Source: Panorpa germanica
Lineage: Eukaryota; Arthropoda; Insecta; Mecoptera; Panorpidae
Assembly: GCA_963678705.1 (NCBI GenBank)
Contig: CAVMBN010000096.1
Coordinates: 62,001-126,000, forward strand
Length of the DNA: 64,000 nucleotides
Direction of reading: 5' to 3'
Shown: positions 20,414 through 52,826 of the stretch, one piece after another
Layout: the number at the start of each line of letters is the position of its first letter
How positions within the stretch are numbered: the first letter of the stretch is position 1
Notes under the pieces: model-generated
Database searches by the model: none
Told to the model about the DNA's origin: nothing
The model's input: only the letters and a program-made list of their open reading frames with translations
Made by a program: the position numbers and the translations under genes

Positions 20414-20753
20414 TGTTTGGGTTTGGGTGTCTTTTTCTATACATTTAAGTTAAACACCCAATTTATAATATTGAATAATTTTGCTGATGTTTCGTAATAA
20501 AAATCATTGGTAATTAACAACAATTAATTGTATTAATTTAATATAATTAATTAAACCTTTATTGAAATAATACTAATGCGACAAAATGAACATGCTTTAT
20601 TAAGCTAATAAAAATGAATGAATAACTGAAAACAAATGATTCTAATTAATGATTTTACAATTTTAAAAGGTTACTAAGATAATAAATAAATTTGACAATA
20701 AAGAAATTTATAAATATTTAATAGAAGGTAAATGTTTATTTGTTTCTTTAACA
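20414..20753 (-). repeat. LTR (3' LTR of unit 1), 340 bp
   Basis: Starts TGTTTGGG and ends TTAACA on the plus strand, so it has TG...CA ends. In element sense (minus) it carries AATAAA polyadenylation-type hexamers at 20596-20601 and 20558-20563. An inverted repeat TTGGGTGT/ACACCCAA lies near the downstream end, able to form a hairpin in R or U5. A polypurine tract abuts its upstream side. It appears identical to the other five full LTRs. Confidence 0.93.
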
Positions 20754-20765
20754 TACTCCCCCCGT
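20754..20765 (-). promoter_or_regulatory. Polypurine tract
   Basis: On the minus strand this reads ACGGGGGGAGTA immediately before the 3' LTR. It is the expected primer for plus-strand DNA synthesis. A short inverted repeat (TTGATG...CATCAA) sits just upstream of it. Confidence 0.85.
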
Positions 20766-20835
20766 TGATGTATCGGCAGGTGCATCAATATTGTCTAAGG
20801 GTAGTAAGGCAAATTTTATTACGGCTCTAGTAGTT

Positions 20836-21090
20836 TCACCATATTGTGTGTTTTAATACTGCTACTCGTGCTTGTGAATCTGTGCCTGGTAATGATTTTA
20901 TTATTTGTCCTAATGCCCATTGGGTTGGTGGCATATTGTCTTCATTAATTAAGACCAGAGATCCTATTTTAATGTCTGGACTAGTAGTTGTCTTCCATTT
21001 GCTTCTTTGTTGGCAGTGATTGATATAATCAGATGACAATCTTTTCCAGTAATGTTGGATACAATCTTGTATATGAGAGAATCGTTGCAT
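20836..21090 (-). pseudogene. Integrase C-terminal fragment (DUF5641-like)
   Basis: An 84-residue frame with the pattern of the BEL/Pao integrase C-terminal region: QHYWKRLSSDY, QQRSKW, then GSLVLINEDNMPPTQWALG and PGTDSQARVAVLKH. The family usually continues into a few more conserved residues, but here a stop follows. The first ATG shown is not a real start. Upstream, at 21091-21306, related sequence continues in other frames with stops, including a match to the usual PGYLIIGR stretch. This is a decayed part of the pol reading frame and not an independent gene. Confidence 0.85.
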
Positions 21091-21306
21091 TTTATTTAAA
21101 TTAACTGGAGGTTGCGCTGCTGGTGTGATACTAGTAATGAGGCGACCGATAATTAAGTATCCAGGGGTGATAGGATTTAATTAGTTAGGGTCAGAGGACA
21201 TAGCATATAATGATCGGGAATTTAAGATTGCTTTTACTTTTGTCAAAAGAGTATATAAATCTTTATAAGAAAGATAACTGTTCATTAGAACTTTTTTTTC
21301 AAATGA

Positions 21307-21684
21307 CTAAGTAGATTTTACATTCGTTTCCCACAGCCTACCAAAATGTGGAGGTCTGAGTTGTATGAATTTCCAAGTAATGGATAATTCAGAAGCAGAA
21401 ACTGCAAGTTTAGAAGTCTTTGACTCATTAGCAAGAAATTTTGCTAAAATATTGTTAGTTCCCACAAAGTTAGTTCCATTATCGGAGTATATAGTGTAAG
21501 GATTTCCACAGCGAAATATAAACCGATTAAGTGCTGCGAGGAAACATTGAGTCAATTCCGTAACAAATTCAAAATGAATTGCTTTAGTAGTAAAGTATAT
21601 ATATAAAAAAAATGTAAGCTGCTTTAATGAAAGCTCCTTAAAAGTCCTTACCGATTTTTAAATATTATCGGACCGGCATAATTA
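21307..21684 (-). pseudogene. Integrase catalytic core fragment, broken
   Basis: Integrase inserts retroelement DNA into the host genome. The 82-residue piece at 21307-21555 shows the second catalytic Asp in YSDNGTNFVG and the region of the catalytic Glu in PPHFGRLWE. Homology extends upstream to about 21684, but in other frames with a stop. There the normal DYAGP motif reads NYAGP, so the first catalytic Asp is Asn. The N-terminal HHCC zinc domain is absent: the core begins within about 15 bp of the end of the RNase H frame. It cannot encode a working integrase. Confidence 0.88.
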
Positions 21685-21696
21685 ATATTATATTAA

Positions 21697-24318
21697 TTAA
21701 GGTTTACATTTAAAAGGCCACAAATCCGAAGATTGTTTAAACCAGAAAAGGCATGACCAACACCATAAATAATTATTTATGACTTGGTTAGCAATTGTAC
21801 CATAGGAAATATAATCAGCAGGGTTACTGTCTTTAGGTATGTGACTCCATTGAAACGGGTCATTCATAATTGATTGTATTTCAGAGATACGATTAGCTAT
21901 AAATACCTTTAAAGTATGTGGTGAAAGTTTTAACCAAGATAATACTATTGTCGAATCAGACCAAAGTATAACTTTATTAATCTTGATAGGTAGAGTGCTT
22001 ATTAATTTTTGAGTAATTTTACTCAATATTAAAGCTGAGCATAACTCTGAACAAGGAATGCTAAGTATTTTTAGTGGTGCAACCTTAGATATAGAATGTA
22101 CTAACGATAATTGTGAATCGCCTTGAATGTTAAAAGATTTAAAATATACGCAGGCGCCATAAGCCTCTTCTGAGGCATCACAAAAATCATGTAACTCTAT
22201 ATTAATGCAGTCTAAGATTATAACTTTCCTAAGTATTGAAAAGTTATTTAATTCTGGTAAATTTTGTATTAATGTTAACCAAAATTTAATCAAAATTTGT
22301 GGTAATTCATCATCCCAATTCAATTTATGTAACCATAATGTTTGAATCATAATTTTAAATGGAATGATGCAAGGTGATAGTAATCCTAATGGATTAAATA
22401 TTTTGGGAATAAATAACAAAATATTGCGTTTAGCATATTTATTAGGTGGCTTTAAAGTAATATTATACTTAAAGGTGTCGGATTCAGAATCCCATTTTAC
22501 CCCAAGGGTCTTGACATTTTCCGATTCATTAGAATCGATTATAAAATGTTTATCCGAGTTAGTACCTTTGATACCTGATAATAATATGTGTGAATTTGAT
22601 ATCCAATTTCTTAATTTAAAACCAGTGCTGTACAAAATTAGATTATTTTTATGACAGCGTTCAGCAATTTGCTTCAGGTTTGGATTATTGAAATGTGGAT
22701 ATTCTAGTTTGATGTGTTTAGGAATCACAAAGTTTGAAATATTTATTTCAGAGTGTGGTATTTTATTAGTTATTTTGTCCATAACTAGACAATTAAACTG
22801 TGTAGTTAAAGAATGTATATTTACATTTATTTTAGAAGTGACATTTGTAGATGCATTGCCAATTCCAGATATAACTACACTAGTATTCATTAAGTTATTA
22901 CTTAATTTATGAGCTAAATGTTTAGTTATATAACTGGTTTGACTTCCATTATCAAGTAATGCCCTTGCTATAACCGATTTACCTTTATCATCAATGTCTT
23001 CAACTAATGCTGTTGAATGCAAAGTTTGATTAGCATTTAGAGTTTGAGATGTGAAAGTATCACTAGAGGTGGGTGAAATAGCTAAATCATTTTGAGGTGG
23101 TTTAGAGGTCGAAGGAGATAAATGCAACAAAGTATGATGCATCTTTTCACATACATTACATGAGTATTTTGAAGTGCATTTTTTAGTAAGGTGACCTTTT
23201 CTCATACAGTTCAAACATAAATTATGTTTTCTGGCTTGTTTAATACGTGAACTTACTGTCCAATTAGAAAATATCTTGCATTGGTCGACTGGGTGATTGC
23301 CATTACAAAAATAGCATTTATTATTCTGAGAAACTATTACAGATTTCTGAGACTTGGGTTTCGCACTAACTTTTAAATATTCACTTTGCTCATCAATTTC
23401 ATGGGCGCGTTTCAACATGCTTGATAGAAGTGAATCAATAGTTAGAAAATCACTTTTAGGGCTTTGAGACAAATGCCATTGAGCTTTAGTGGAAGAATCT
23501 AACTTTTTGAAAATTAAAGCAGTAGTATATTGATCCCAACGTTTTTCAGATAAATGAGGAATACTATTTTCCAAAGACTTTACATATTTTCTAATGAGGG
23601 ATGCTGTGGTTCTCAAGTTATCACTACATTCTAAATTTAAATTAGGGATATTTAAAAATGAATTAATGTGATCAGAAATTCTTTGCTTTGTACTGTCGTA
23701 CATTTCAAGCAAAAGTTCCCAGCATAAATTGTAGTTTTTGCCATCAATTTTTTCGTGTAATATGTTATCAAGTGCTTCACCCTTTAAATAACTTCTAAGC
23801 AAATGAAGCTTTTTGAGATTAGAAAAATTAACTTGACTGTGAATCAAGCTTATATAATTTGATTTAAAGGCATTCCAACTTGCAATATCACCGTAGAAAG
23901 TAGGTACAGAAGTATGAGGTTTTTCAATATTGTTATTAGTATGATTGCATGAATTACTTATATTTAGAGATGATTCCGGTTCAGGATCAGGAAGTATTTC
24001 ATTTACTACGGACTCTATATCTACATATTTATTGTAAAGATCAGCACGTATATCATTTATTCTTTTTATTTCAGAATCGTTATCAATATTTAATTCCAGT
24101 AATGAAGTGCAAGTTTCTTGTAATTCATCAAACAGAGGAAAACATATTTTTTTAAAACATCTTATTTTATAAATATTATAAGTAGAAGGATCATCTACAT
24201 TTATTTTATCAATTAATTTGATATGAATATCTAAAGTAGATTGAATGCAATGCAATTTAGCATTTAGTTTTCTTAATACTGCCATGATGATAATAAATAT
24301 TATTGAATATTTAATCAA
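21697..24318 (-). pseudogene. Gag-protease-RNase H polyprotein, RT core deleted (unit 1)
   Basis: This is an uninterrupted 873-codon frame. Translation probably starts at the ATG at 24285 (residue 12, MAVLRKLNAKL), as in related Gags. Order of parts: DUF1759-like Gag at about 20-300 (SVPTFYGDIASWNAF, then LKGEAL); zinc knuckles at 335-347, 368-381 and 387-399; retropepsin-like protease with DNGSQTS at 456-462, where the usual motif is DSG or DTG; RT C-terminal region at about 566-700 (GFKLRNWISN, FNPLGLLSPC); RNase H with the four acidic residues D714, E758, D788 and D835. The RT fingers and palm, including the YVDD-type site, are missing between about 548 and 566. The deletion is in frame. 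Gag may still be made; the enzyme part is not functional as RT. Confidence 0.9.
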
Positions 24319-24338
24319 AACAGTAAATAATTTATGTA

Positions 24339-24833
24339 TATACCTAACAACTTTGTGGGGTTGCGGTATAGATGATTAAAAATATACGTATAAAATCAAC
24401 TTTGTGGGGTTGACGTATATTTAGATTAATGTATATACCTATGAAATCAACTTTGTGGGGTTGAGGTATAAATTAAATATAGTATATACCTATAAAATCA
24501 ACTCTATGAGGTTGAGGTATAAGTGATTAAACATATACGTATGAAATCAACTCTATGAGGTTGACGTATATTTAAATTAATGTATGTATATACCTATTAA
24601 ATCAACTCTATGAGGTTGAGGTATAAATGATTAAACATATACGTATGAAATCAACTCTATGAGGTTGACGTATATTTAAATTAATGTATGTATATACCTA
24701 TTAAATCAACTCTATGAGGTTGAGGTATAAATGATTAAACATATACGTATGAAATCAACTCTATGAGGTTGACGTATATTTAAATTAATGTATGTATATA
24801 CCTATTAAATCAACTCTATGAGGTTGAGGTATA
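24339..24833 (-). repeat. Array of ten hairpin units in the retroelement leader (unit 1)
   Basis: Ten inverted-repeat units of about 37 bp. Each has outer arms TATACCT/AGGTATA or TATACGT/ACGTATA and an inner CAAC/GTTG stem. The order of the variable base pair is C, G, C, C, G, C, G, C, G, C. The later units are dimers repeating every 104 bp (24589, 24693, 24797). The array lies just upstream of the Gag start in element sense. The first unit has one mismatch in its outer arm. Both arms change together between the two unit types, as in conserved RNA structure. Confidence 0.88.
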
Positions 24834-25084
24834 AGTGACCATTTCTATGAGAACGAATGTAAAATATAATATTAAAAGCAATTATAAATAAGATGCAAAT
24901 GGGGTTATTAATTATTTATCGGTAACATCAAAACTAGATCATATATGCAGTATTTTTATGCTCCAGATAATCAATTCCCAGCTATGTTGTAGTGTAATAT
25001 GCAGAATTTCAATATTTTACCTCATAATCAATTTTCGAAGATGGTGTGGATTCATTTTGTTCAATTCACAATAGCTGTTCAAAA
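24834..25084 (-). other. Leader spacer with no recognised content (unit 1)
   Basis: About 250 bp between the hairpin array and the minisatellite, inside the untranslated leader of the element. There is no long ORF or known motif. Two similar pieces, GATAATCAATT and CATAATCAATT, about 60 bp apart are the only internal similarity I noted. The same spacer recurs in the other three units. Confidence 0.6.
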
Positions 25085-25479
25085 ATGGTTGGTTGACAAC
25101 ATCCGTTGCTCAATGGAACAATGGTTGGTTGACGACATCCGTTGCTATAAGCACCAATGGTTGGTTGATAACATCCGTTGCTCAATGGAACAATGGTTGG
25201 TTGACGACATCCGTTGCTATAAGCACCAATGGTTGGTTGATAACATCCGTTGCTCAATGGAACAATGGTTGGTTGACGACATCCGTTGCTATAAGCACCA
25301 ATGGTTGGTTGATAACATCCGTTGCTCAATGGAACAATGGTTGGTTGACGACATCCGTTGCTATAAGCACCAATGGTTGTTTTATGACATCCGTTGTTAT
25401 ATGCAACAATAGTTGCTTGACGACATCCGTTGTTATAAGGACCAAATGGTTAATTTACGATATCCGGCTCGAAGGACCA
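25085..25479 (-). repeat. 36-bp minisatellite ending in the primer binding site (unit 1)
   Basis: Ten 36-bp units (25085-25444) are followed by a 34-bp terminal unit (25446-25479) that contains the primer binding site. Two unit types alternate as a 72-bp dimer for eight units. Units 9 and 10 are more diverged. In element sense each unit starts with a sequence resembling the PBS, such as TGGTGCTTATAGCAACGGAT and TGTTCCATTGAGCAACGGAT. Because 36 is divisible by three, open frames of 87-140 codons run through on both strands; these are not taken as genes. Confidence 0.9.
25462..25479 (-). promoter_or_regulatory. Primer binding site, tRNA-Tyr-like (unit 1)
   Basis: In element sense TGGTCCTTCGAGCCGGAT begins one base after the LTR-like end. 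Its complement, ATCCGGCTCGAAGGACCA, agrees with the conserved 3' end of animal tRNA-Tyr including CCA, as I know it. It would prime minus-strand DNA synthesis. Confidence 0.85.
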
Positions 25480-25480
25480 A

Positions 25481-25599
25481 TGTTTGGGTTTGGGTGTCTT
25501 TTTCTATACATTTAAGTTAAACACCCAATTTATAATATTGAATAATTTTGCTGATGTTTCGTAATAAAAATCATGTAACTCTATATTAATGCATTAACA
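25481..25599 (-). repeat. Hybrid mini-LTR, 119 bp (unit 1)
   Basis: On the plus strand, 25481-25574 equals the first 94 bp of the LTR. Then 25575-25593 (19 bp) equals internal coding sequence at 22191-22209, and 25594-25599 (TTAACA) equals the LTR end. The switch into coding sequence falls at a shared 9-bp AAAAATCAT. A polypurine tract follows directly at 25600-25611, so it looks like the remnant of a drastically deleted element or a template-switch product. Confidence 0.88.
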
Positions 25600-25631
25600 T
25601 ACTCCCCCCGTGGTTCCGGCTCGAAGGACCA
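25600..25631 (-). promoter_or_regulatory. Fused polypurine tract and second primer binding site (unit 1)
   Basis: 25600-25611 is the same 12-bp polypurine tract found before the 3' LTR. It runs straight into 25612-25631, a second tRNA-Tyr-like primer site abutting the full LTR after one base. Here the base before TCCGG is T rather than the A seen at 25463, closer to some tRNA-Tyr genes. No coding sequence separates the two signals. Confidence 0.85.
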
Positions 25632-25632
25632 A

Positions 25633-25972
25633 TGTTTGGGTTTGGGTGTCTTTTTCTATACATTTAAGTTAAACACCCAATTTATAATATTGAATAATTT
25701 TGCTGATGTTTCGTAATAAAAATCATTGGTAATTAACAACAATTAATTGTATTAATTTAATATAATTAATTAAACCTTTATTGAAATAATACTAATGCGA
25801 CAAAATGAACATGCTTTATTAAGCTAATAAAAATGAATGAATAACTGAAAACAAATGATTCTAATTAATGATTTTACAATTTTAAAAGGTTACTAAGATA
25901 ATAAATAAATTTGACAATAAAGAAATTTATAAATATTTAATAGAAGGTAAATGTTTATTTGTTTCTTTAACA
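25633..25972 (-). repeat. Central shared LTR, insertion 1
   Basis: Full 340-bp LTR with TG...CA ends, flanked on both sides by internal sequence and without GCTAT. It serves as the 5' LTR of unit 1 and the 3' LTR of unit 2. The lack of a target duplication here shows the two units did not insert separately. Confidence 0.92.
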
Positions 25973-25984
25973 TACTCCCCCCGT
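25973..25984 (-). promoter_or_regulatory. Polypurine tract (unit 2)
   Basis: Copy of the ACGGGGGGAGTA tract (minus strand) abutting the central LTR. Confidence 0.83.
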
Positions 25985-26054
25985 TGATGTATCGGCAGGT
26001 GCATCAATATTGTCTAAGGGTAGTAAGGCAAATTTTATTACGGCTCTAGTAGTT

Positions 26055-26309
26055 TCACCATATTGTGTGTTTTAATACTGCTACTCGTGCTTGTGAATCT
26101 GTGCCTGGTAATGATTTTATTATTTGTCCTAATGCCCATTGGGTTGGTGGCATATTGTCTTCATTAATTAAGACCAGAGATCCTATTTTAATGTCTGGAC
26201 TAGTAGTTGTCTTCCATTTGCTTCTTTGTTGGCAGTGATTGATATAATCAGATGACAATCTTTTCCAGTAATGTTGGATACAATCTTGTATATGAGAGAA
26301 TCGTTGCAT
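26055..26309 (-). pseudogene. Integrase C-terminal fragment (unit 2)
   Basis: Same 84-codon DUF5641-like fragment as at 20836-21090, with the same residues and the same stop, 5219 bp further right. Confidence 0.85.
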
Positions 26310-26525
26310 TTTATTTAAATTAACTGGAGGTTGCGCTGCTGGTGTGATACTAGTAATGAGGCGACCGATAATTAAGTATCCAGGGGTGATAGGATTTAAT
26401 TAGTTAGGGTCAGAGGACATAGCATATAATGATCGGGAATTTAAGATTGCTTTTACTTTTGTCAAAAGAGTATATAAATCTTTATAAGAAAGATAACTGT
26501 TCATTAGAACTTTTTTTTCAAATGA

Positions 26526-26903
26526 CTAAGTAGATTTTACATTCGTTTCCCACAGCCTACCAAAATGTGGAGGTCTGAGTTGTATGAATTTCCAAGTAAT
26601 GGATAATTCAGAAGCAGAAACTGCAAGTTTAGAAGTCTTTGACTCATTAGCAAGAAATTTTGCTAAAATATTGTTAGTTCCCACAAAGTTAGTTCCATTA
26701 TCGGAGTATATAGTGTAAGGATTTCCACAGCGAAATATAAACCGATTAAGTGCTGCGAGGAAACATTGAGTCAATTCCGTAACAAATTCAAAATGAATTG
26801 CTTTAGTAGTAAAGTATATATATAAAAAAAATGTAAGCTGCTTTAATGAAAGCTCCTTAAAAGTCCTTACCGATTTTTAAATATTATCGGACCGGCATAA
26901 TTA
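26526..26903 (-). pseudogene. Integrase core fragment, broken (unit 2)
   Basis: Copy of the broken integrase core: SDNGTNF and the GRLWE region are present, the upstream motif is NYAGP, and the zinc domain is absent. It shares the same lesions as unit 1, so these predate the doubling of the element. Confidence 0.87.
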
Positions 26904-26915
26904 ATATTATATTAA

Positions 26916-29537
26916 TTAAGGTTTACATTTAAAAGGCCACAAATCCGAAGATTGTTTAAACCAGAAAAGGCATGACCAACACCATAAATAATTATTTATG
27001 ACTTGGTTAGCAATTGTACCATAGGAAATATAATCAGCAGGGTTACTGTCTTTAGGTATGTGACTCCATTGAAACGGGTCATTCATAATTGATTGTATTT
27101 CAGAGATACGATTAGCTATAAATACCTTTAAAGTATGTGGTGAAAGTTTTAACCAAGATAATACTATTGTCGAATCAGACCAAAGTATAACTTTATTAAT
27201 CTTGATAGGTAGAGTGCTTATTAATTTTTGAGTAATTTTACTCAATATTAAAGCTGAGCATAACTCTGAACAAGGAATGCTAAGTATTTTTAGTGGTGCA
27301 ACCTTAGATATAGAATGTACTAACGATAATTGTGAATCGCCTTGAATGTTAAAAGATTTAAAATATACGCAGGCGCCATAAGCCTCTTCTGAGGCATCAC
27401 AAAAATCATGTAACTCTATATTAATGCAGTCTAAGATTATAACTTTCCTAAGTATTGAAAAGTTATTTAATTCTGGTAAATTTTGTATTAATGTTAACCA
27501 AAATTTAATCAAAATTTGTGGTAATTCATCATCCCAATTCAATTTATGTAACCATAATGTTTGAATCATAATTTTAAATGGAATGATGCAAGGTGATAGT
27601 AATCCTAATGGATTAAATATTTTGGGAATAAATAACAAAATATTGCGTTTAGCATATTTATTAGGTGGCTTTAAAGTAATATTATACTTAAAGGTGTCGG
27701 ATTCAGAATCCCATTTTACCCCAAGGGTCTTGACATTTTCCGATTCATTAGAATCGATTATAAAATGTTTATCCGAGTTAGTACCTTTGATACCTGATAA
27801 TAATATGTGTGAATTTGATATCCAATTTCTTAATTTAAAACCAGTGCTGTACAAAATTAGATTATTTTTATGACAGCGTTCAGCAATTTGCTTCAGGTTT
27901 GGATTATTGAAATGTGGATATTCTAGTTTGATGTGTTTAGGAATCACAAAGTTTGAAATATTTATTTCAGAGTGTGGTATTTTATTAGTTATTTTGTCCA
28001 TAACTAGACAATTAAACTGTGTAGTTAAAGAATGTATATTTACATTTATTTTAGAAGTGACATTTGTAGATGCATTGCCAATTCCAGATATAACTACACT
28101 AGTATTCATTAAGTTATTACTTAATTTATGAGCTAAATGTTTAGTTATATAACTGGTTTGACTTCCATTATCAAGTAATGCCCTTGCTATAACCGATTTA
28201 CCTTTATCATCAATGTCTTCAACTAATGCTGTTGAATGCAAAGTTTGATTAGCATTTAGAGTTTGAGATGTGAAAGTATCACTAGAGGTGGGTGAAATAG
28301 CTAAATCATTTTGAGGTGGTTTAGAGGTCGAAGGAGATAAATGCAACAAAGTATGATGCATCTTTTCACATACATTACATGAGTATTTTGAAGTGCATTT
28401 TTTAGTAAGGTGACCTTTTCTCATACAGTTCAAACATAAATTATGTTTTCTGGCTTGTTTAATACGTGAACTTACTGTCCAATTAGAAAATATCTTGCAT
28501 TGGTCGACTGGGTGATTGCCATTACAAAAATAGCATTTATTATTCTGAGAAACTATTACAGATTTCTGAGACTTGGGTTTCGCACTAACTTTTAAATATT
28601 CACTTTGCTCATCAATTTCATGGGCGCGTTTCAACATGCTTGATAGAAGTGAATCAATAGTTAGAAAATCACTTTTAGGGCTTTGAGACAAATGCCATTG
28701 AGCTTTAGTGGAAGAATCTAACTTTTTGAAAATTAAAGCAGTAGTATATTGATCCCAACGTTTTTCAGATAAATGAGGAATACTATTTTCCAAAGACTTT
28801 ACATATTTTCTAATGAGGGATGCTGTGGTTCTCAAGTTATCACTACATTCTAAATTTAAATTAGGGATATTTAAAAATGAATTAATGTGATCAGAAATTC
28901 TTTGCTTTGTACTGTCGTACATTTCAAGCAAAAGTTCCCAGCATAAATTGTAGTTTTTGCCATCAATTTTTTCGTGTAATATGTTATCAAGTGCTTCACC
29001 CTTTAAATAACTTCTAAGCAAATGAAGCTTTTTGAGATTAGAAAAATTAACTTGACTGTGAATCAAGCTTATATAATTTGATTTAAAGGCATTCCAACTT
29101 GCAATATCACCGTAGAAAGTAGGTACAGAAGTATGAGGTTTTTCAATATTGTTATTAGTATGATTGCATGAATTACTTATATTTAGAGATGATTCCGGTT
29201 CAGGATCAGGAAGTATTTCATTTACTACGGACTCTATATCTACATATTTATTGTAAAGATCAGCACGTATATCATTTATTCTTTTTATTTCAGAATCGTT
29301 ATCAATATTTAATTCCAGTAATGAAGTGCAAGTTTCTTGTAATTCATCAAACAGAGGAAAACATATTTTTTTAAAACATCTTATTTTATAAATATTATAA
29401 GTAGAAGGATCATCTACATTTATTTTATCAATTAATTTGATATGAATATCTAAAGTAGATTGAATGCAATGCAATTTAGCATTTAGTTTTCTTAATACTG
29501 CCATGATGATAATAAATATTATTGAATATTTAATCAA
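26916..29537 (-). pseudogene. Gag-protease-RNase H polyprotein, RT core deleted (unit 2)
   Basis: The 873-codon frame has the same protein sequence as the copy at 21697-24318, including the in-frame loss of the RT palm and the DNGSQ protease motif. Likely Gag start is the ATG at 29504. The doubling is therefore recent relative to the mutation rate, or is maintained by gene conversion. Confidence 0.9.
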
Positions 29538-29557
29538 AACAGTAAATAATTTATGTA

Positions 29558-30052
29558 TATACCTAACAACTTTGTGGGGTTGCGGTATAGATGATTAAAA
29601 ATATACGTATAAAATCAACTTTGTGGGGTTGACGTATATTTAGATTAATGTATATACCTATGAAATCAACTTTGTGGGGTTGAGGTATAAATTAAATATA
29701 GTATATACCTATAAAATCAACTCTATGAGGTTGAGGTATAAGTGATTAAACATATACGTATGAAATCAACTCTATGAGGTTGACGTATATTTAAATTAAT
29801 GTATGTATATACCTATTAAATCAACTCTATGAGGTTGAGGTATAAATGATTAAACATATACGTATGAAATCAACTCTATGAGGTTGACGTATATTTAAAT
29901 TAATGTATGTATATACCTATTAAATCAACTCTATGAGGTTGAGGTATAAATGATTAAACATATACGTATGAAATCAACTCTATGAGGTTGACGTATATTT
30001 AAATTAATGTATGTATATACCTATTAAATCAACTCTATGAGGTTGAGGTATA
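29558..30052 (-). repeat. Ten-hairpin leader array (unit 2)
   Basis: Same ten alternating TATACCT and TATACGT hairpins in the same order as in unit 1. No unit has been gained or lost, although short tandem arrays usually change copy number quickly. Confidence 0.87.
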
Positions 30053-30303
30053 AGTGACCATTTCTATGAGAACGAATGTAAAATATAATATTAAAAGCAA
30101 TTATAAATAAGATGCAAATGGGGTTATTAATTATTTATCGGTAACATCAAAACTAGATCATATATGCAGTATTTTTATGCTCCAGATAATCAATTCCCAG
30201 CTATGTTGTAGTGTAATATGCAGAATTTCAATATTTTACCTCATAATCAATTTTCGAAGATGGTGTGGATTCATTTTGTTCAATTCACAATAGCTGTTCA
30301 AAA
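30053..30303 (-). other. Leader spacer with no recognised content (unit 2)
   Basis: Copy of the 250-bp spacer between the hairpin array and the minisatellite. Nothing recognisable. Confidence 0.55.
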
Positions 30304-30698
30304 ATGGTTGGTTGACAACATCCGTTGCTCAATGGAACAATGGTTGGTTGACGACATCCGTTGCTATAAGCACCAATGGTTGGTTGATAACATCCGTTGC
30401 TCAATGGAACAATGGTTGGTTGACGACATCCGTTGCTATAAGCACCAATGGTTGGTTGATAACATCCGTTGCTCAATGGAACAATGGTTGGTTGACGACA
30501 TCCGTTGCTATAAGCACCAATGGTTGGTTGATAACATCCGTTGCTCAATGGAACAATGGTTGGTTGACGACATCCGTTGCTATAAGCACCAATGGTTGTT
30601 TTATGACATCCGTTGTTATATGCAACAATAGTTGCTTGACGACATCCGTTGTTATAAGGACCAAATGGTTAATTTACGATATCCGGCTCGAAGGACCA
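30304..30698 (-). repeat. 36-bp PBS-like minisatellite (unit 2)
   Basis: Same eleven-unit array as in unit 1 with the same unit order. It ends in the primer site at 30681-30698. Confidence 0.88.
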
Positions 30699-30699
30699 A

Positions 30700-30818
30700 T
30701 GTTTGGGTTTGGGTGTCTTTTTCTATACATTTAAGTTAAACACCCAATTTATAATATTGAATAATTTTGCTGATGTTTCGTAATAAAAATCATGTAACTC
30801 TATATTAATGCATTAACA
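30700..30818 (-). repeat. Hybrid mini-LTR (unit 2)
   Basis: Same 94 + 19 + 6 bp chimera as at 25481-25599. Its presence at the outer end of the composite shows it belongs to the repeating unit and is not a scar of the doubling. Confidence 0.87.
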
Positions 30819-30850
30819 TACTCCCCCCGTGGTTCCGGCTCGAAGGACCA
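30819..30850 (-). promoter_or_regulatory. Fused polypurine tract and second primer site (unit 2)
   Basis: Polypurine tract (30819-30830) directly joined to the tRNA-Tyr-like primer site (30831-30850), one base from the outer LTR. This primer site abuts the true 5' LTR and is probably the one used. Confidence 0.85.
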
Positions 30851-30851
30851 A

Positions 30852-31191
30852 TGTTTGGGTTTGGGTGTCTTTTTCTATACATTTAAGTTAAACACCCAAT
30901 TTATAATATTGAATAATTTTGCTGATGTTTCGTAATAAAAATCATTGGTAATTAACAACAATTAATTGTATTAATTTAATATAATTAATTAAACCTTTAT
31001 TGAAATAATACTAATGCGACAAAATGAACATGCTTTATTAAGCTAATAAAAATGAATGAATAACTGAAAACAAATGATTCTAATTAATGATTTTACAATT
31101 TTAAAAGGTTACTAAGATAATAAATAAATTTGACAATAAAGAAATTTATAAATATTTAATAGAAGGTAAATGTTTATTTGTTTCTTTAACA
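30852..31191 (-). repeat. 5' LTR of composite, insertion 1
   Basis: Full 340-bp LTR. It ends TTAACA at 31191 and is followed at once by GCTAT and normal satellite. Confidence 0.93.
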
Positions 31192-31196
31192 GCTAT
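31192..31196. repeat. Target-site duplication GCTAT, right, insertion 1
   Basis: Exact match to 20409-20413. It continues into ATATAATATG, the normal satellite sequence after this pentamer. Confidence 0.92.
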
Positions 31197-42388: not shown

Positions 42389-42728
42389 TGTTTGGGTTTG
42401 GGTGTCTTTTTCTATACATTTAAGTTAAACACCCAATTTATAATATTGAATAATTTTGCTGATGTTTCGTAATAAAAATCATTGGTAATTAACAACAATT
42501 AATTGTATTAATTTAATATAATTAATTAAACCTTTATTGAAATAATACTAATGCGACAAAATGAACATGCTTTATTAAGCTAATAAAAATGAATGAATAA
42601 CTGAAAACAAATGATTCTAATTAATGATTTTACAATTTTAAAAGGTTACTAAGATAATAAATAAATTTGACAATAAAGAAATTTATAAATATTTAATAGA
42701 AGGTAAATGTTTATTTGTTTCTTTAACA
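42389..42728 (-). repeat. LTR (3' end of unit 3)
   Basis: Full 340-bp LTR, TG...CA, next to GCTAT on its left and the polypurine tract (42729-42740) on its right. Confidence 0.92.
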
Positions 42729-42740
42729 TACTCCCCCCGT
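42729..42740 (-). promoter_or_regulatory. Polypurine tract (unit 3)
   Basis: ACGGGGGGAGTA on the minus strand, abutting the LTR. Confidence 0.83.
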
Positions 42741-42810
42741 TGATGTATCGGCAGGTGCATCAATATTGTCTAAGGGTAGTAAGGCAAATTTTATTACGGC
42801 TCTAGTAGTT

Positions 42811-43065
42811 TCACCATATTGTGTGTTTTAATACTGCTACTCGTGCTTGTGAATCTGTGCCTGGTAATGATTTTATTATTTGTCCTAATGCCCATTGGGT
42901 TGGTGGCATATTGTCTTCATTAATTAAGACCAGAGATCCTATTTTAATGTCTGGACTAGTAGTTGTCTTCCATTTGCTTCTTTGTTGGCAGTGATTGATA
43001 TAATCAGATGACAATCTTTTCCAGTAATGTTGGATACAATCTTGTATATGAGAGAATCGTTGCAT
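42811..43065 (-). pseudogene. Integrase C-terminal fragment (unit 3)
   Basis: Same DUF5641-like fragment as at 20836-21090, with the same protein sequence and truncation. Confidence 0.85.
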
Positions 43066-43281
43066 TTTATTTAAATTAACTGGAGGTTGCGCTGCTGGTG
43101 TGATACTAGTAATGAGGCGACCGATAATTAAGTATCCAGGGGTGATAGGATTTAATTAGTTAGGGTCAGAGGACATAGCATATAATGATCGGGAATTTAA
43201 GATTGCTTTTACTTTTGTCAAAAGAGTATATAAATCTTTATAAGAAAGATAACTGTTCATTAGAACTTTTTTTTCAAATGA

Positions 43282-43659
43282 CTAAGTAGATTTTACATTC
43301 GTTTCCCACAGCCTACCAAAATGTGGAGGTCTGAGTTGTATGAATTTCCAAGTAATGGATAATTCAGAAGCAGAAACTGCAAGTTTAGAAGTCTTTGACT
43401 CATTAGCAAGAAATTTTGCTAAAATATTGTTAGTTCCCACAAAGTTAGTTCCATTATCGGAGTATATAGTGTAAGGATTTCCACAGCGAAATATAAACCG
43501 ATTAAGTGCTGCGAGGAAACATTGAGTCAATTCCGTAACAAATTCAAAATGAATTGCTTTAGTAGTAAAGTATATATATAAAAAAAATGTAAGCTGCTTT
43601 AATGAAAGCTCCTTAAAAGTCCTTACCGATTTTTAAATATTATCGGACCGGCATAATTA
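43282..43659 (-). pseudogene. Integrase core fragment, broken (unit 3)
   Basis: Copy of the broken core at 21307-21684 with SDNGTNF and NYAGP and the same frameshift region. No N-terminal zinc domain. Confidence 0.87.
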
Positions 43660-43671
43660 ATATTATATTAA

Positions 43672-46293
43672 TTAAGGTTTACATTTAAAAGGCCACAAAT
43701 CCGAAGATTGTTTAAACCAGAAAAGGCATGACCAACACCATAAATAATTATTTATGACTTGGTTAGCAATTGTACCATAGGAAATATAATCAGCAGGGTT
43801 ACTGTCTTTAGGTATGTGACTCCATTGAAACGGGTCATTCATAATTGATTGTATTTCAGAGATACGATTAGCTATAAATACCTTTAAAGTATGTGGTGAA
43901 AGTTTTAACCAAGATAATACTATTGTCGAATCAGACCAAAGTATAACTTTATTAATCTTGATAGGTAGAGTGCTTATTAATTTTTGAGTAATTTTACTCA
44001 ATATTAAAGCTGAGCATAACTCTGAACAAGGAATGCTAAGTATTTTTAGTGGTGCAACCTTAGATATAGAATGTACTAACGATAATTGTGAATCGCCTTG
44101 AATGTTAAAAGATTTAAAATATACGCAGGCGCCATAAGCCTCTTCTGAGGCATCACAAAAATCATGTAACTCTATATTAATGCAGTCTAAGATTATAACT
44201 TTCCTAAGTATTGAAAAGTTATTTAATTCTGGTAAATTTTGTATTAATGTTAACCAAAATTTAATCAAAATTTGTGGTAATTCATCATCCCAATTCAATT
44301 TATGTAACCATAATGTTTGAATCATAATTTTAAATGGAATGATGCAAGGTGATAGTAATCCTAATGGATTAAATATTTTGGGAATAAATAACAAAATATT
44401 GCGTTTAGCATATTTATTAGGTGGCTTTAAAGTAATATTATACTTAAAGGTGTCGGATTCAGAATCCCATTTTACCCCAAGGGTCTTGACATTTTCCGAT
44501 TCATTAGAATCGATTATAAAATGTTTATCCGAGTTAGTACCTTTGATACCTGATAATAATATGTGTGAATTTGATATCCAATTTCTTAATTTAAAACCAG
44601 TGCTGTACAAAATTAGATTATTTTTATGACAGCGTTCAGCAATTTGCTTCAGGTTTGGATTATTGAAATGTGGATATTCTAGTTTGATGTGTTTAGGAAT
44701 CACAAAGTTTGAAATATTTATTTCAGAGTGTGGTATTTTATTAGTTATTTTGTCCATAACTAGACAATTAAACTGTGTAGTTAAAGAATGTATATTTACA
44801 TTTATTTTAGAAGTGACATTTGTAGATGCATTGCCAATTCCAGATATAACTACACTAGTATTCATTAAGTTATTACTTAATTTATGAGCTAAATGTTTAG
44901 TTATATAACTGGTTTGACTTCCATTATCAAGTAATGCCCTTGCTATAACCGATTTACCTTTATCATCAATGTCTTCAACTAATGCTGTTGAATGCAAAGT
45001 TTGATTAGCATTTAGAGTTTGAGATGTGAAAGTATCACTAGAGGTGGGTGAAATAGCTAAATCATTTTGAGGTGGTTTAGAGGTCGAAGGAGATAAATGC
45101 AACAAAGTATGATGCATCTTTTCACATACATTACATGAGTATTTTGAAGTGCATTTTTTAGTAAGGTGACCTTTTCTCATACAGTTCAAACATAAATTAT
45201 GTTTTCTGGCTTGTTTAATACGTGAACTTACTGTCCAATTAGAAAATATCTTGCATTGGTCGACTGGGTGATTGCCATTACAAAAATAGCATTTATTATT
45301 CTGAGAAACTATTACAGATTTCTGAGACTTGGGTTTCGCACTAACTTTTAAATATTCACTTTGCTCATCAATTTCATGGGCGCGTTTCAACATGCTTGAT
45401 AGAAGTGAATCAATAGTTAGAAAATCACTTTTAGGGCTTTGAGACAAATGCCATTGAGCTTTAGTGGAAGAATCTAACTTTTTGAAAATTAAAGCAGTAG
45501 TATATTGATCCCAACGTTTTTCAGATAAATGAGGAATACTATTTTCCAAAGACTTTACATATTTTCTAATGAGGGATGCTGTGGTTCTCAAGTTATCACT
45601 ACATTCTAAATTTAAATTAGGGATATTTAAAAATGAATTAATGTGATCAGAAATTCTTTGCTTTGTACTGTCGTACATTTCAAGCAAAAGTTCCCAGCAT
45701 AAATTGTAGTTTTTGCCATCAATTTTTTCGTGTAATATGTTATCAAGTGCTTCACCCTTTAAATAACTTCTAAGCAAATGAAGCTTTTTGAGATTAGAAA
45801 AATTAACTTGACTGTGAATCAAGCTTATATAATTTGATTTAAAGGCATTCCAACTTGCAATATCACCGTAGAAAGTAGGTACAGAAGTATGAGGTTTTTC
45901 AATATTGTTATTAGTATGATTGCATGAATTACTTATATTTAGAGATGATTCCGGTTCAGGATCAGGAAGTATTTCATTTACTACGGACTCTATATCTACA
46001 TATTTATTGTAAAGATCAGCACGTATATCATTTATTCTTTTTATTTCAGAATCGTTATCAATATTTAATTCCAGTAATGAAGTGCAAGTTTCTTGTAATT
46101 CATCAAACAGAGGAAAACATATTTTTTTAAAACATCTTATTTTATAAATATTATAAGTAGAAGGATCATCTACATTTATTTTATCAATTAATTTGATATG
46201 AATATCTAAAGTAGATTGAATGCAATGCAATTTAGCATTTAGTTTTCTTAATACTGCCATGATGATAATAAATATTATTGAATATTTAATCAA
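43672..46293 (-). pseudogene. Gag-protease-RNase H polyprotein, RT core deleted (unit 3)
   Basis: Third copy of the 873-codon frame with the same protein as units 1, 2 and 4. The zinc knuckles, DNGSQ protease motif and RNase H acidic residues are intact; the RT palm is missing. Likely Gag start is the ATG at 46260. Confidence 0.9.
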
Positions 46294-46313
46294 AACAGTA
46301 AATAATTTATGTA

Positions 46314-46808
46314 TATACCTAACAACTTTGTGGGGTTGCGGTATAGATGATTAAAAATATACGTATAAAATCAACTTTGTGGGGTTGACGTATATTTAGA
46401 TTAATGTATATACCTATGAAATCAACTTTGTGGGGTTGAGGTATAAATTAAATATAGTATATACCTATAAAATCAACTCTATGAGGTTGAGGTATAAGTG
46501 ATTAAACATATACGTATGAAATCAACTCTATGAGGTTGACGTATATTTAAATTAATGTATGTATATACCTATTAAATCAACTCTATGAGGTTGAGGTATA
46601 AATGATTAAACATATACGTATGAAATCAACTCTATGAGGTTGACGTATATTTAAATTAATGTATGTATATACCTATTAAATCAACTCTATGAGGTTGAGG
46701 TATAAATGATTAAACATATACGTATGAAATCAACTCTATGAGGTTGACGTATATTTAAATTAATGTATGTATATACCTATTAAATCAACTCTATGAGGTT
46801 GAGGTATA
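46314..46808 (-). repeat. Ten-hairpin leader array (unit 3)
   Basis: Same ten units and the same order of C-G and G-C stem types as at 24339-24833. Confidence 0.87.
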
Positions 46809-47059
46809 AGTGACCATTTCTATGAGAACGAATGTAAAATATAATATTAAAAGCAATTATAAATAAGATGCAAATGGGGTTATTAATTATTTATCGGTAA
46901 CATCAAAACTAGATCATATATGCAGTATTTTTATGCTCCAGATAATCAATTCCCAGCTATGTTGTAGTGTAATATGCAGAATTTCAATATTTTACCTCAT
47001 AATCAATTTTCGAAGATGGTGTGGATTCATTTTGTTCAATTCACAATAGCTGTTCAAAA
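46809..47059 (-). other. Leader spacer with no recognised content (unit 3)
   Basis: Copy of the 250-bp leader spacer. Nothing recognisable. Confidence 0.55.
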
Positions 47060-47454
47060 ATGGTTGGTTGACAACATCCGTTGCTCAATGGAACAATGGT
47101 TGGTTGACGACATCCGTTGCTATAAGCACCAATGGTTGGTTGATAACATCCGTTGCTCAATGGAACAATGGTTGGTTGACGACATCCGTTGCTATAAGCA
47201 CCAATGGTTGGTTGATAACATCCGTTGCTCAATGGAACAATGGTTGGTTGACGACATCCGTTGCTATAAGCACCAATGGTTGGTTGATAACATCCGTTGC
47301 TCAATGGAACAATGGTTGGTTGACGACATCCGTTGCTATAAGCACCAATGGTTGTTTTATGACATCCGTTGTTATATGCAACAATAGTTGCTTGACGACA
47401 TCCGTTGTTATAAGGACCAAATGGTTAATTTACGATATCCGGCTCGAAGGACCA
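47060..47454 (-). repeat. 36-bp PBS-like minisatellite (unit 3)
   Basis: Eleven-unit array as in unit 1, with the tRNA-Tyr-like primer site at 47437-47454 as its last unit. Confidence 0.88.
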
Positions 47455-47455
47455 A

Positions 47456-47574
47456 TGTTTGGGTTTGGGTGTCTTTTTCTATACATTTAAGTTAAACACC
47501 CAATTTATAATATTGAATAATTTTGCTGATGTTTCGTAATAAAAATCATGTAACTCTATATTAATGCATTAACA
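47456..47574 (-). repeat. Hybrid mini-LTR (unit 3)
   Basis: Same LTR / coding filler / LTR-end chimera as at 25481-25599. Confidence 0.87.
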
Positions 47575-47606
47575 TACTCCCCCCGTGGTTCCGGCTCGAA
47601 GGACCA
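47575..47606 (-). promoter_or_regulatory. Fused polypurine tract and second primer site (unit 3)
   Basis: Polypurine tract (47575-47586) joined to the primer site (47587-47606), one base from the central LTR. Confidence 0.84.
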
Positions 47607-47607
47607 A

Positions 47608-47947
47608 TGTTTGGGTTTGGGTGTCTTTTTCTATACATTTAAGTTAAACACCCAATTTATAATATTGAATAATTTTGCTGATGTTTCGTAATAAAAATCA
47701 TTGGTAATTAACAACAATTAATTGTATTAATTTAATATAATTAATTAAACCTTTATTGAAATAATACTAATGCGACAAAATGAACATGCTTTATTAAGCT
47801 AATAAAAATGAATGAATAACTGAAAACAAATGATTCTAATTAATGATTTTACAATTTTAAAAGGTTACTAAGATAATAAATAAATTTGACAATAAAGAAA
47901 TTTATAAATATTTAATAGAAGGTAAATGTTTATTTGTTTCTTTAACA
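47608..47947 (-). repeat. Central shared LTR, insertion 2
   Basis: Full 340-bp LTR between units 3 and 4, without a flanking GCTAT. Followed by a polypurine tract at 47948-47959. Confidence 0.92.
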
Positions 47948-47959
47948 TACTCCCCCCGT
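47948..47959 (-). promoter_or_regulatory. Polypurine tract (unit 4)
   Basis: ACGGGGGGAGTA on the minus strand, abutting the central LTR. Confidence 0.83.
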
Positions 47960-48029
47960 TGATGTATCGGCAGGTGCATCAATATTGTCTAAGGGTAGTA
48001 AGGCAAATTTTATTACGGCTCTAGTAGTT

Positions 48030-48284
48030 TCACCATATTGTGTGTTTTAATACTGCTACTCGTGCTTGTGAATCTGTGCCTGGTAATGATTTTATTATTT
48101 GTCCTAATGCCCATTGGGTTGGTGGCATATTGTCTTCATTAATTAAGACCAGAGATCCTATTTTAATGTCTGGACTAGTAGTTGTCTTCCATTTGCTTCT
48201 TTGTTGGCAGTGATTGATATAATCAGATGACAATCTTTTCCAGTAATGTTGGATACAATCTTGTATATGAGAGAATCGTTGCAT
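48030..48284 (-). pseudogene. Integrase C-terminal fragment (unit 4)
   Basis: Fourth copy of the DUF5641-like fragment, with the same protein sequence as at 20836-21090. Confidence 0.85.
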
Positions 48285-48500
48285 TTTATTTAAATTAACT
48301 GGAGGTTGCGCTGCTGGTGTGATACTAGTAATGAGGCGACCGATAATTAAGTATCCAGGGGTGATAGGATTTAATTAGTTAGGGTCAGAGGACATAGCAT
48401 ATAATGATCGGGAATTTAAGATTGCTTTTACTTTTGTCAAAAGAGTATATAAATCTTTATAAGAAAGATAACTGTTCATTAGAACTTTTTTTTCAAATGA

Positions 48501-48878
48501 CTAAGTAGATTTTACATTCGTTTCCCACAGCCTACCAAAATGTGGAGGTCTGAGTTGTATGAATTTCCAAGTAATGGATAATTCAGAAGCAGAAACTGCA
48601 AGTTTAGAAGTCTTTGACTCATTAGCAAGAAATTTTGCTAAAATATTGTTAGTTCCCACAAAGTTAGTTCCATTATCGGAGTATATAGTGTAAGGATTTC
48701 CACAGCGAAATATAAACCGATTAAGTGCTGCGAGGAAACATTGAGTCAATTCCGTAACAAATTCAAAATGAATTGCTTTAGTAGTAAAGTATATATATAA
48801 AAAAAATGTAAGCTGCTTTAATGAAAGCTCCTTAAAAGTCCTTACCGATTTTTAAATATTATCGGACCGGCATAATTA
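48501..48878 (-). pseudogene. Integrase core fragment, broken (unit 4)
   Basis: Fourth copy of the broken integrase core with the same lesions as at 21307-21684. Confidence 0.87.
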
Positions 48879-48890
48879 ATATTATATTAA

Positions 48891-51512
48891 TTAAGGTTTA
48901 CATTTAAAAGGCCACAAATCCGAAGATTGTTTAAACCAGAAAAGGCATGACCAACACCATAAATAATTATTTATGACTTGGTTAGCAATTGTACCATAGG
49001 AAATATAATCAGCAGGGTTACTGTCTTTAGGTATGTGACTCCATTGAAACGGGTCATTCATAATTGATTGTATTTCAGAGATACGATTAGCTATAAATAC
49101 CTTTAAAGTATGTGGTGAAAGTTTTAACCAAGATAATACTATTGTCGAATCAGACCAAAGTATAACTTTATTAATCTTGATAGGTAGAGTGCTTATTAAT
49201 TTTTGAGTAATTTTACTCAATATTAAAGCTGAGCATAACTCTGAACAAGGAATGCTAAGTATTTTTAGTGGTGCAACCTTAGATATAGAATGTACTAACG
49301 ATAATTGTGAATCGCCTTGAATGTTAAAAGATTTAAAATATACGCAGGCGCCATAAGCCTCTTCTGAGGCATCACAAAAATCATGTAACTCTATATTAAT
49401 GCAGTCTAAGATTATAACTTTCCTAAGTATTGAAAAGTTATTTAATTCTGGTAAATTTTGTATTAATGTTAACCAAAATTTAATCAAAATTTGTGGTAAT
49501 TCATCATCCCAATTCAATTTATGTAACCATAATGTTTGAATCATAATTTTAAATGGAATGATGCAAGGTGATAGTAATCCTAATGGATTAAATATTTTGG
49601 GAATAAATAACAAAATATTGCGTTTAGCATATTTATTAGGTGGCTTTAAAGTAATATTATACTTAAAGGTGTCGGATTCAGAATCCCATTTTACCCCAAG
49701 GGTCTTGACATTTTCCGATTCATTAGAATCGATTATAAAATGTTTATCCGAGTTAGTACCTTTGATACCTGATAATAATATGTGTGAATTTGATATCCAA
49801 TTTCTTAATTTAAAACCAGTGCTGTACAAAATTAGATTATTTTTATGACAGCGTTCAGCAATTTGCTTCAGGTTTGGATTATTGAAATGTGGATATTCTA
49901 GTTTGATGTGTTTAGGAATCACAAAGTTTGAAATATTTATTTCAGAGTGTGGTATTTTATTAGTTATTTTGTCCATAACTAGACAATTAAACTGTGTAGT
50001 TAAAGAATGTATATTTACATTTATTTTAGAAGTGACATTTGTAGATGCATTGCCAATTCCAGATATAACTACACTAGTATTCATTAAGTTATTACTTAAT
50101 TTATGAGCTAAATGTTTAGTTATATAACTGGTTTGACTTCCATTATCAAGTAATGCCCTTGCTATAACCGATTTACCTTTATCATCAATGTCTTCAACTA
50201 ATGCTGTTGAATGCAAAGTTTGATTAGCATTTAGAGTTTGAGATGTGAAAGTATCACTAGAGGTGGGTGAAATAGCTAAATCATTTTGAGGTGGTTTAGA
50301 GGTCGAAGGAGATAAATGCAACAAAGTATGATGCATCTTTTCACATACATTACATGAGTATTTTGAAGTGCATTTTTTAGTAAGGTGACCTTTTCTCATA
50401 CAGTTCAAACATAAATTATGTTTTCTGGCTTGTTTAATACGTGAACTTACTGTCCAATTAGAAAATATCTTGCATTGGTCGACTGGGTGATTGCCATTAC
50501 AAAAATAGCATTTATTATTCTGAGAAACTATTACAGATTTCTGAGACTTGGGTTTCGCACTAACTTTTAAATATTCACTTTGCTCATCAATTTCATGGGC
50601 GCGTTTCAACATGCTTGATAGAAGTGAATCAATAGTTAGAAAATCACTTTTAGGGCTTTGAGACAAATGCCATTGAGCTTTAGTGGAAGAATCTAACTTT
50701 TTGAAAATTAAAGCAGTAGTATATTGATCCCAACGTTTTTCAGATAAATGAGGAATACTATTTTCCAAAGACTTTACATATTTTCTAATGAGGGATGCTG
50801 TGGTTCTCAAGTTATCACTACATTCTAAATTTAAATTAGGGATATTTAAAAATGAATTAATGTGATCAGAAATTCTTTGCTTTGTACTGTCGTACATTTC
50901 AAGCAAAAGTTCCCAGCATAAATTGTAGTTTTTGCCATCAATTTTTTCGTGTAATATGTTATCAAGTGCTTCACCCTTTAAATAACTTCTAAGCAAATGA
51001 AGCTTTTTGAGATTAGAAAAATTAACTTGACTGTGAATCAAGCTTATATAATTTGATTTAAAGGCATTCCAACTTGCAATATCACCGTAGAAAGTAGGTA
51101 CAGAAGTATGAGGTTTTTCAATATTGTTATTAGTATGATTGCATGAATTACTTATATTTAGAGATGATTCCGGTTCAGGATCAGGAAGTATTTCATTTAC
51201 TACGGACTCTATATCTACATATTTATTGTAAAGATCAGCACGTATATCATTTATTCTTTTTATTTCAGAATCGTTATCAATATTTAATTCCAGTAATGAA
51301 GTGCAAGTTTCTTGTAATTCATCAAACAGAGGAAAACATATTTTTTTAAAACATCTTATTTTATAAATATTATAAGTAGAAGGATCATCTACATTTATTT
51401 TATCAATTAATTTGATATGAATATCTAAAGTAGATTGAATGCAATGCAATTTAGCATTTAGTTTTCTTAATACTGCCATGATGATAATAAATATTATTGA
51501 ATATTTAATCAA
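48891..51512 (-). pseudogene. Gag-protease-RNase H polyprotein, RT core deleted (unit 4)
   Basis: Fourth copy of the 873-codon frame, with the same protein as the other three. Likely Gag start is the ATG at 51479. Its leader in element sense is the closest complete one to the outer 5' LTR of insertion 2, so this copy would be first on a full-length transcript. Confidence 0.9.
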
Positions 51513-51532
51513 AACAGTAAATAATTTATGTA

Positions 51533-52027
51533 TATACCTAACAACTTTGTGGGGTTGCGGTATAGATGATTAAAAATATACGTATAAAATCAACTTTGTG
51601 GGGTTGACGTATATTTAGATTAATGTATATACCTATGAAATCAACTTTGTGGGGTTGAGGTATAAATTAAATATAGTATATACCTATAAAATCAACTCTA
51701 TGAGGTTGAGGTATAAGTGATTAAACATATACGTATGAAATCAACTCTATGAGGTTGACGTATATTTAAATTAATGTATGTATATACCTATTAAATCAAC
51801 TCTATGAGGTTGAGGTATAAATGATTAAACATATACGTATGAAATCAACTCTATGAGGTTGACGTATATTTAAATTAATGTATGTATATACCTATTAAAT
51901 CAACTCTATGAGGTTGAGGTATAAATGATTAAACATATACGTATGAAATCAACTCTATGAGGTTGACGTATATTTAAATTAATGTATGTATATACCTATT
52001 AAATCAACTCTATGAGGTTGAGGTATA
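51533..52027 (-). repeat. Ten-hairpin leader array (unit 4)
   Basis: Same ten-hairpin array as at 24339-24833. Confidence 0.87.
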
Positions 52028-52278
52028 AGTGACCATTTCTATGAGAACGAATGTAAAATATAATATTAAAAGCAATTATAAATAAGATGCAAATGGGGTT
52101 ATTAATTATTTATCGGTAACATCAAAACTAGATCATATATGCAGTATTTTTATGCTCCAGATAATCAATTCCCAGCTATGTTGTAGTGTAATATGCAGAA
52201 TTTCAATATTTTACCTCATAATCAATTTTCGAAGATGGTGTGGATTCATTTTGTTCAATTCACAATAGCTGTTCAAAA
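52028..52278 (-). other. Leader spacer with no recognised content (unit 4)
   Basis: Copy of the 250-bp leader spacer. Nothing recognisable. Confidence 0.55.
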
Positions 52279-52673
52279 ATGGTTGGTTGACAACATCCGT
52301 TGCTCAATGGAACAATGGTTGGTTGACGACATCCGTTGCTATAAGCACCAATGGTTGGTTGATAACATCCGTTGCTCAATGGAACAATGGTTGGTTGACG
52401 ACATCCGTTGCTATAAGCACCAATGGTTGGTTGATAACATCCGTTGCTCAATGGAACAATGGTTGGTTGACGACATCCGTTGCTATAAGCACCAATGGTT
52501 GGTTGATAACATCCGTTGCTCAATGGAACAATGGTTGGTTGACGACATCCGTTGCTATAAGCACCAATGGTTGTTTTATGACATCCGTTGTTATATGCAA
52601 CAATAGTTGCTTGACGACATCCGTTGTTATAAGGACCAAATGGTTAATTTACGATATCCGGCTCGAAGGACCA
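52279..52673 (-). repeat. 36-bp PBS-like minisatellite (unit 4)
   Basis: Eleven-unit array with the primer site at 52656-52673 as its last unit. Confidence 0.88.
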
Positions 52674-52674
52674 A

Positions 52675-52793
52675 TGTTTGGGTTTGGGTGTCTTTTTCTA
52701 TACATTTAAGTTAAACACCCAATTTATAATATTGAATAATTTTGCTGATGTTTCGTAATAAAAATCATGTAACTCTATATTAATGCATTAACA
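52675..52793 (-). repeat. Hybrid mini-LTR (unit 4)
   Basis: Same chimera as at 25481-25599. Confidence 0.87.
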
Positions 52794-52825
52794 TACTCCC
52801 CCCGTGGTTCCGGCTCGAAGGACCA
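52794..52825 (-). promoter_or_regulatory. Fused polypurine tract and second primer site (unit 4)
   Basis: Polypurine tract (52794-52805) joined to the primer site (52806-52825), one base from the outer 5' LTR of insertion 2. Confidence 0.84.
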
Positions 52826-52826
52826 A

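Follow-up and report, generated by a model that had tools for sequence, protein, structure and literature searches.

A tandem leader array resembling the primer binding site of its own BEL/Pao retrotransposon in Panorpa germanica

Minisatellites in the leaders or untranslated regions (UTRs) of long terminal repeat (LTR) retrotransposons have been described as frequent, and some of them are insulators or enhancers (PMC7168160, PMC5408687, PMC3286476). In this study, we analyzed a 64,000-nucleotide stretch from Panorpa germanica (assembly GCA_963678705.1, contig CAVMBN010000096.1, positions 62,001 to 126,000 of the forward strand; hereafter the window), in which a BEL/Pao LTR retrotransposon carries a 36-bp tandem array at its primer binding site (PBS). 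Achilles, a BEL/Pao element of the olive fly, also has an 18-nt tRNA-Tyr PBS, a long 5' UTR with direct and indirect repeats, zinc-finger motifs, and fragments near satellite DNA; it differs in that the part of the description available does not state a PBS origin for its repeats (PMC4580426). The leader minisatellites of gypsy, copia, ZAM, and Tirant are the same type of repeat, but as far as the sources describe them, their units are protein-binding sites or were captured from the host and are not PBS copies (PMC7168160, PMC5408687). The copy number of the Tirant leader repeat varies from two to six (PMC5408687). Internal tandem repeats have also been reported for non-autonomous LTR elements of Culex, and an unusual PBS region for cqgypsy_1; the latter carries two whole tRNA copies placed head to head at its PBS, and the accessible text describes no tandem PBS array (PMC3286476). 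Cassandra arrays are LTR-internal-LTR-internal-LTR composites, as is the element described here, but they are plant terminal-repeat retrotransposons in miniature (TRIM), for which that source, in the part available, describes no PBS-derived minisatellite (PMC7215508).

No leader repeat founded on an element's own PBS was found in the literature searched, the coverage of which was partial. The first-pass annotation of the window, made from the sequence alone, had stated that no LTR element with a tandem PBS-like leader was known. This can be kept for the PBS origin of the unit, to which the novelty appears to be confined; as a kind, the leader minisatellite is known.

The primer of the element is presumed to be tRNA-Tyr, which agrees with the description of Achilles. 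As listed in Table 1, the array lies on the reverse strand and ends at an 18-nt PBS, designated PBS2. Tandem Repeats Finder (TRF) detected the 36-bp array at 25080-25466 with 10.7 copies, and also reported a 72-bp dimer form (5.1 copies, 95% matches); both were found at all four places where the array had first been noticed. The four arrays are nevertheless one sequence in duplicated islands. Because the identical islands sit in 21,975-bp duplicates that differ at one position, the arrays were treated as one observation (n = 1). The ten 36-bp units fall into five kinds with copy numbers of 1, 1, 4, 3, and 1. Kinds A and B alternate, the 72-bp pair has been amplified to four, and the odd units stand at the PBS edge. 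PBS2 and about 17 bp of leader form the terminal unit (measured between successive TGG starts), and this unit shares the register of the array. The earlier description of the PBS as the last unit was therefore correct, except that this unit is 35 bp and not 34 bp long.

Next, the units were compared with the PBS. When one 2-base gap was allowed, the five kinds matched 15, 12, 15, 15, and 15 of the 18 PBS positions, so the earlier figure of about 15 of 18 applies to nine of the ten units and the tenth stands at 12. With the two gap columns set aside, all 12 invariant columns of the array agree with the PBS, and in five of the six variable columns the PBS base is held by some unit. In the column test, the PBS was shuffled with its TGG kept and the gap position left free; none of 20,000 shuffles equaled the observed value of 17, and the best reached 15. 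The in-register score averaged over kinds was likewise equaled by none of 20,000 TGG-keeping shuffles, with p values for single kinds from 0.00005 to 0.0028. Register 0 in the element sense ranked first among 72 rotations and strands (8.3 versus 3.3). An alignment of the units to the PBS with shuffled controls had been suggested together with the original claim, and in both tests no shuffle was as good.

The likeness extends beyond the PBS. For the 16-bp flank by itself, 3 of 20,000 shuffles were as good as the mean over kinds, and the individual kinds were equaled by 9, 6, 1, 232, and 20 of 20,000. We also ranked the PBS of the window against the primer-site equivalents of 24 phage T5 tRNAs (of the 25 annotated, the one flagged as a pseudogene was left out); it came first of 25, with a score of 8.3 against 3.7 for the next. 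Free local alignment of single units against dinucleotide shuffles, from which the B units were left out, is weaker evidence than the register, column, and flank tests: two kinds had p values of about 0.0005 to 0.001, and the worst-scoring kind had one of 0.1. Since the array units share descent, tests over several kinds are not mutually independent. The register and column tests carry the case for PBS likeness, and an in-register likeness that includes the flank is what would be expected of a tandem leader founded on the PBS. These results confirm the array and its PBS likeness, and the register, column, flank, and tRNA-set controls support the earlier claim that it is built from degenerate copies of a PBS-containing segment.

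The units have a common register with the PBS and share its core and its flank, and their dimer has been amplified. We consider it probable that a PBS-plus-leader segment founded the array, which then grew by slippage or unequal exchange and is now most likely a passive minisatellite. A segment of about 35 bp, consisting of the PBS and the first 16-17 bp of the BEL/Pao leader, would have been duplicated in tandem by slippage or unequal exchange, either at the DNA level or in the course of reverse transcription. Copies farther inside would then have ceased to serve as the primer site and acquired two bases and point changes, giving rise to the A/B pair, and this 72-bp pair would have been amplified to four copies. 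The outermost PBS copy may have stayed exact because reverse transcription renews it from the tRNA in every round. That the outer PBS is exact is consistent with plus-strand strong-stop synthesis, in which 18 nt of the primer tRNA are copied. Given how improbable a chance resemblance to the tRNA would be, we regard the PBS as the probable founder; we infer that it came first, that the tRNA resets it, and that the array is neutral. The junction of LTR end and PBS start (CAAACATTGG) resembles that of one unit end and the next unit start (CAACCATTGG). This likeness could have guided the first misalignment of about 35 bp, or the duplication may have produced it. The first-pass annotation had proposed that a PBS-containing segment was amplified beside the LTR, perhaps during primer removal or strand transfer. 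A PBS-founded amplification is upheld by the present data; the special tie to primer removal or strand transfer is not supported, because the pattern of A/B dimers resembles the outcome of ordinary slippage or unequal exchange, and no trace of internal priming was seen in the LTRs.

Several observations weigh against this explanation. The window provides just one independent sequence, and one unit matches the PBS at only 12 of 18 positions. As four of the five kinds tie at 15 of 18, no gradient indicates the direction of change, and the PBS-adjoining unit does not stand out as the youngest. In duplexes with the tRNA 3' end, four kinds beat 98 to 100% of 500 shuffles each (shuffled means, -8.5 to -9.8 kcal/mol). 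Over all ten units, agreement with the PBS unit was 147/180 in the PBS core versus 112/160 in the flank, an apparent slight excess that selection could also produce.

Among the alternatives, the main one for a role of the array is the putative binding of regulatory proteins. The array would then be an insulator- or enhancer-like repeat whose PBS likeness reflects origin only, and this reading, which we regard as unlikely, can be compatible with a PBS-founded origin. Leader tandem repeats with such functions have been described for Drosophila elements (PMC7168160), and the array would be comparable to those in the leaders of gypsy, copia, and ZAM.

Somewhat less likely still is that the array came first: a leader minisatellite would already have existed, one of its units would by chance have been able to pair with tRNA-Tyr, the element would have taken this unit over as its primer site, and reverse transcription would then have turned it into a perfect match. 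Rewriting would yield an exact 18-nt PBS within an array-like unit, as is observed. However, the chance resemblance to the tRNA that it requires was reached by none of the 20,000 shuffles, and the 24 other tRNAs all scored well short of it.

It is quite doubtful that the ten weak PBS copies are functional docking or priming sites, that is, an array that raises the local concentration of tRNA-Tyr or provides reserve primer sites. If this were true, the element would go on priming after damage to its outer PBS. The calculated duplexes with the tRNA 3' end reached -17.4 to -18.3 kcal/mol for four of the five kinds, far below the shuffled means, and none of the 24 T5 tRNAs paired equally well with these four; the PBS itself reached -37.1 kcal/mol. 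Against this, the fifth kind (-6.9 kcal/mol) paired no more strongly than shuffles, and 4 of the 24 T5 tRNAs equaled it. Of the PBS, the 8 leading bases are those that pair with the tRNA 3' end; one unit alone matches them in full, and the other units match 2 to 4 of them. The PBS-like part of the unit varies in 6 of 20 columns and the flank in 5 of 16 (Fisher p = 1); because the PBS-like columns vary as much as the flank columns, no constraint on pairing is apparent. Under the standard scheme of reverse transcription, an element primed at an inner unit would be expected to carry the PBS and the upstream units inside both of its new LTRs. The six full LTRs of the window are identical and all terminate at the same base, in CCCAAACA, and neither PBS nor unit sequence was found in them beyond the level of shuffles (46 to 189 of 200 shuffled LTRs were equal, for the PBS and the five kinds). 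As the LTRs are copies of each other, this result covers the last one or two replication cycles and not the family. Internal priming was set aside, since the LTRs show no trace of PBS or units. The array RNA showed no structure beyond shuffles (z = -0.06; 45 of 100 shuffles folded equally).

That an AT-rich repeat should resemble the PBS by chance is hardly credible: the local scores of single units are of only moderate rarity and for one kind the p value is about 0.1, but the register, column, flank, and tRNA-set controls speak against it, with none of 20,000 shuffles as good in two tests.

The proposed foundation of the array by the PBS concerns a single independent copy of one element, the features of which are given in Table 1. 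The host of the array is a defective, non-autonomous BEL/Pao LTR retrotransposon. It has the hallmarks of an LTR retrotransposon, namely 340-bp TGTT...AACA LTRs, a PBS, a polypurine tract, and a GCTAT target duplication.

Table 1. Positions in the window of the array and of the element and islands that contain it
Feature	Position	Strand	Remarks
Ten 36-bp PBS-like units, copy 1	25085..25444	-	
PBS-bearing 35-bp unit, copy 1	25445..25479	-	PBS2 is the 18 nt at 25462-25479
Array and PBS2, copy 2	30304..30698	-	
Array and PBS2, copy 3	47060..47454	-	
Array and PBS2, copy 4	52279..52673	-	
Truncated LTR	25481..25599	-	94-bp LTR 3' end (25481-25574), 28-bp stretch, LTR start TGTTAA
Polypurine tract, immediately upstream (element sense) of truncated LTR	25600..25611	-	
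PBS1, exact 17-bp tRNA-Tyr-type primer site beside intact LTR	25615..25631	-	Also 30834, 47590, 52809
Intact 340-bp LTR	25633..25972	-	Further LTRs at 20414, 30852, 42389, 47608, 52827
892-aa open frame: Gag (DUF1759), zinc knuckles, weak protease matches, Peptidase_A17	26916..29594	-	Pfam scan
Second leader array, 49/104 bp, hairpin-forming units	29567..30057	-	Also 24348-24838, 46323-46813, 51542-52032
Island 1, composite BEL/Pao element	20414..31191	-	GCTAT 5-bp duplication on both sides; joined flanks are satellite at 100%
Island 2, identical to island 1	42389..53166	-	0 differences in 10,778 bp

In the Pfam scan, the 892-aa frame matched Peptidase_A17 (E = 1e-43) and DUF1759 (E = 5.3e-28), together with two protease matches that both fell under the curated cut-offs; no reverse transcriptase family was matched. 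By eye, the third zinc motif of Gag, of the Pao type C-X2-4-C-X3-4-HH-X3-4-H (PMC4580426), is present as CNVCEKMHHTLLH. The element 3' of this frame is broken into short frames. One of these may resemble an integrase core. Rfam gave no match up to E = 1 over 20300-31400, and nothing among the PDB sequences matched up to E = 0.1.

The 5' end of the element is rearranged and reads, in the element sense, intact LTR, PBS1, polypurine tract, truncated LTR, PBS2, and array. PBS1, between the intact and the truncated LTR, has 17 nt in common with PBS2 and diverges beyond them; the first-pass annotation had named PBS2 only. The 28-bp filler of the truncated LTR (25566-25593) is identical to 27401-27428 in pol. 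At 25594-25632 and 30813-30851, PBS1 almost abuts the polypurine tract and an LTR that lacks its U3 (unique 3') part and bears this filler from pol. These junctions look as if an element emptied between PBS and polypurine tract had been fused with a fuller one.

A second leader array was also observed. In its nine full units the stem is CCT/AGG in five and CGT/ACG in four, a matched change on both sides, and its RNA was more stable than shuffles (z = -2.65; 1 of 100 shuffles equal). Its 104-bp dimer may stem from a single event.

A tandem-repeat scan showed that the window consists of a 280-bp satellite at 1-20413, 31192-42388, and 53167-64000, interrupted by the two islands of 10,778 bp each, between which there are 0 differences. 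Each island is a composite with the order LTR-internal-LTR-internal-LTR, read from right to left in the element sense, and contains three identical 340-bp LTRs and two internal regions; a 5,559-bp stretch within it repeats identically at an offset of 5,219 bp. The composite is bordered by GCTAT, the 5-bp target duplication, on each side. When the flanks were joined without the element, they matched the satellite at 9072-9371 at 100% over 300 bases in both islands, so the composite resembles a single insertion into the satellite. Satellite and island together form two tandem repeats of 21,975 bp (9217-31191 and 31192-53166) with a single difference, at 12308, which reflects either a very recent duplication or a doubling in the assembly. 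In 77 of the 110 satellite copies split out, the unit has a frame of 38-39 codons with a signal-peptide-like start. This short frame is unlike protein-coding sequence, because codon position 3 is the least variable (0.042 versus 0.088 and 0.083; 67 of the 110 copies kept).

Relatives were searched for in collections of viral, bacterial, and archaeal records, which say little about insects. For the protein, 8 pattern stretches in viral_contigs and 29 in genome_contigs gave 0 confirmed relatives, and there was no match in plasmids and phages. The exact 17-bp PBS occurred elsewhere in 1 stretch of viral_contigs and 67 of genome_contigs, and 65 of these 68 lie in surroundings of more than 50% G+C. 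One match (L011) falls within a 364-aa open frame. In L034, a contig recorded as that of a sponge symbiont, the exact 17-bp tRNA-Tyr-type PBS at 1111-1127 follows an LTR-like TGTTACA, and this is possibly DNA of a host retroelement.

The origins of leader minisatellites are often unclear. In the BEL/Pao element of P. germanica a probable founder can be named, and it is the primer site. Presumably the functional PBS is restored from the tRNA in each cycle and the inner copies go unrenewed, so that arrays of this kind could record past primer sites and help to date switches of the primer tRNA.
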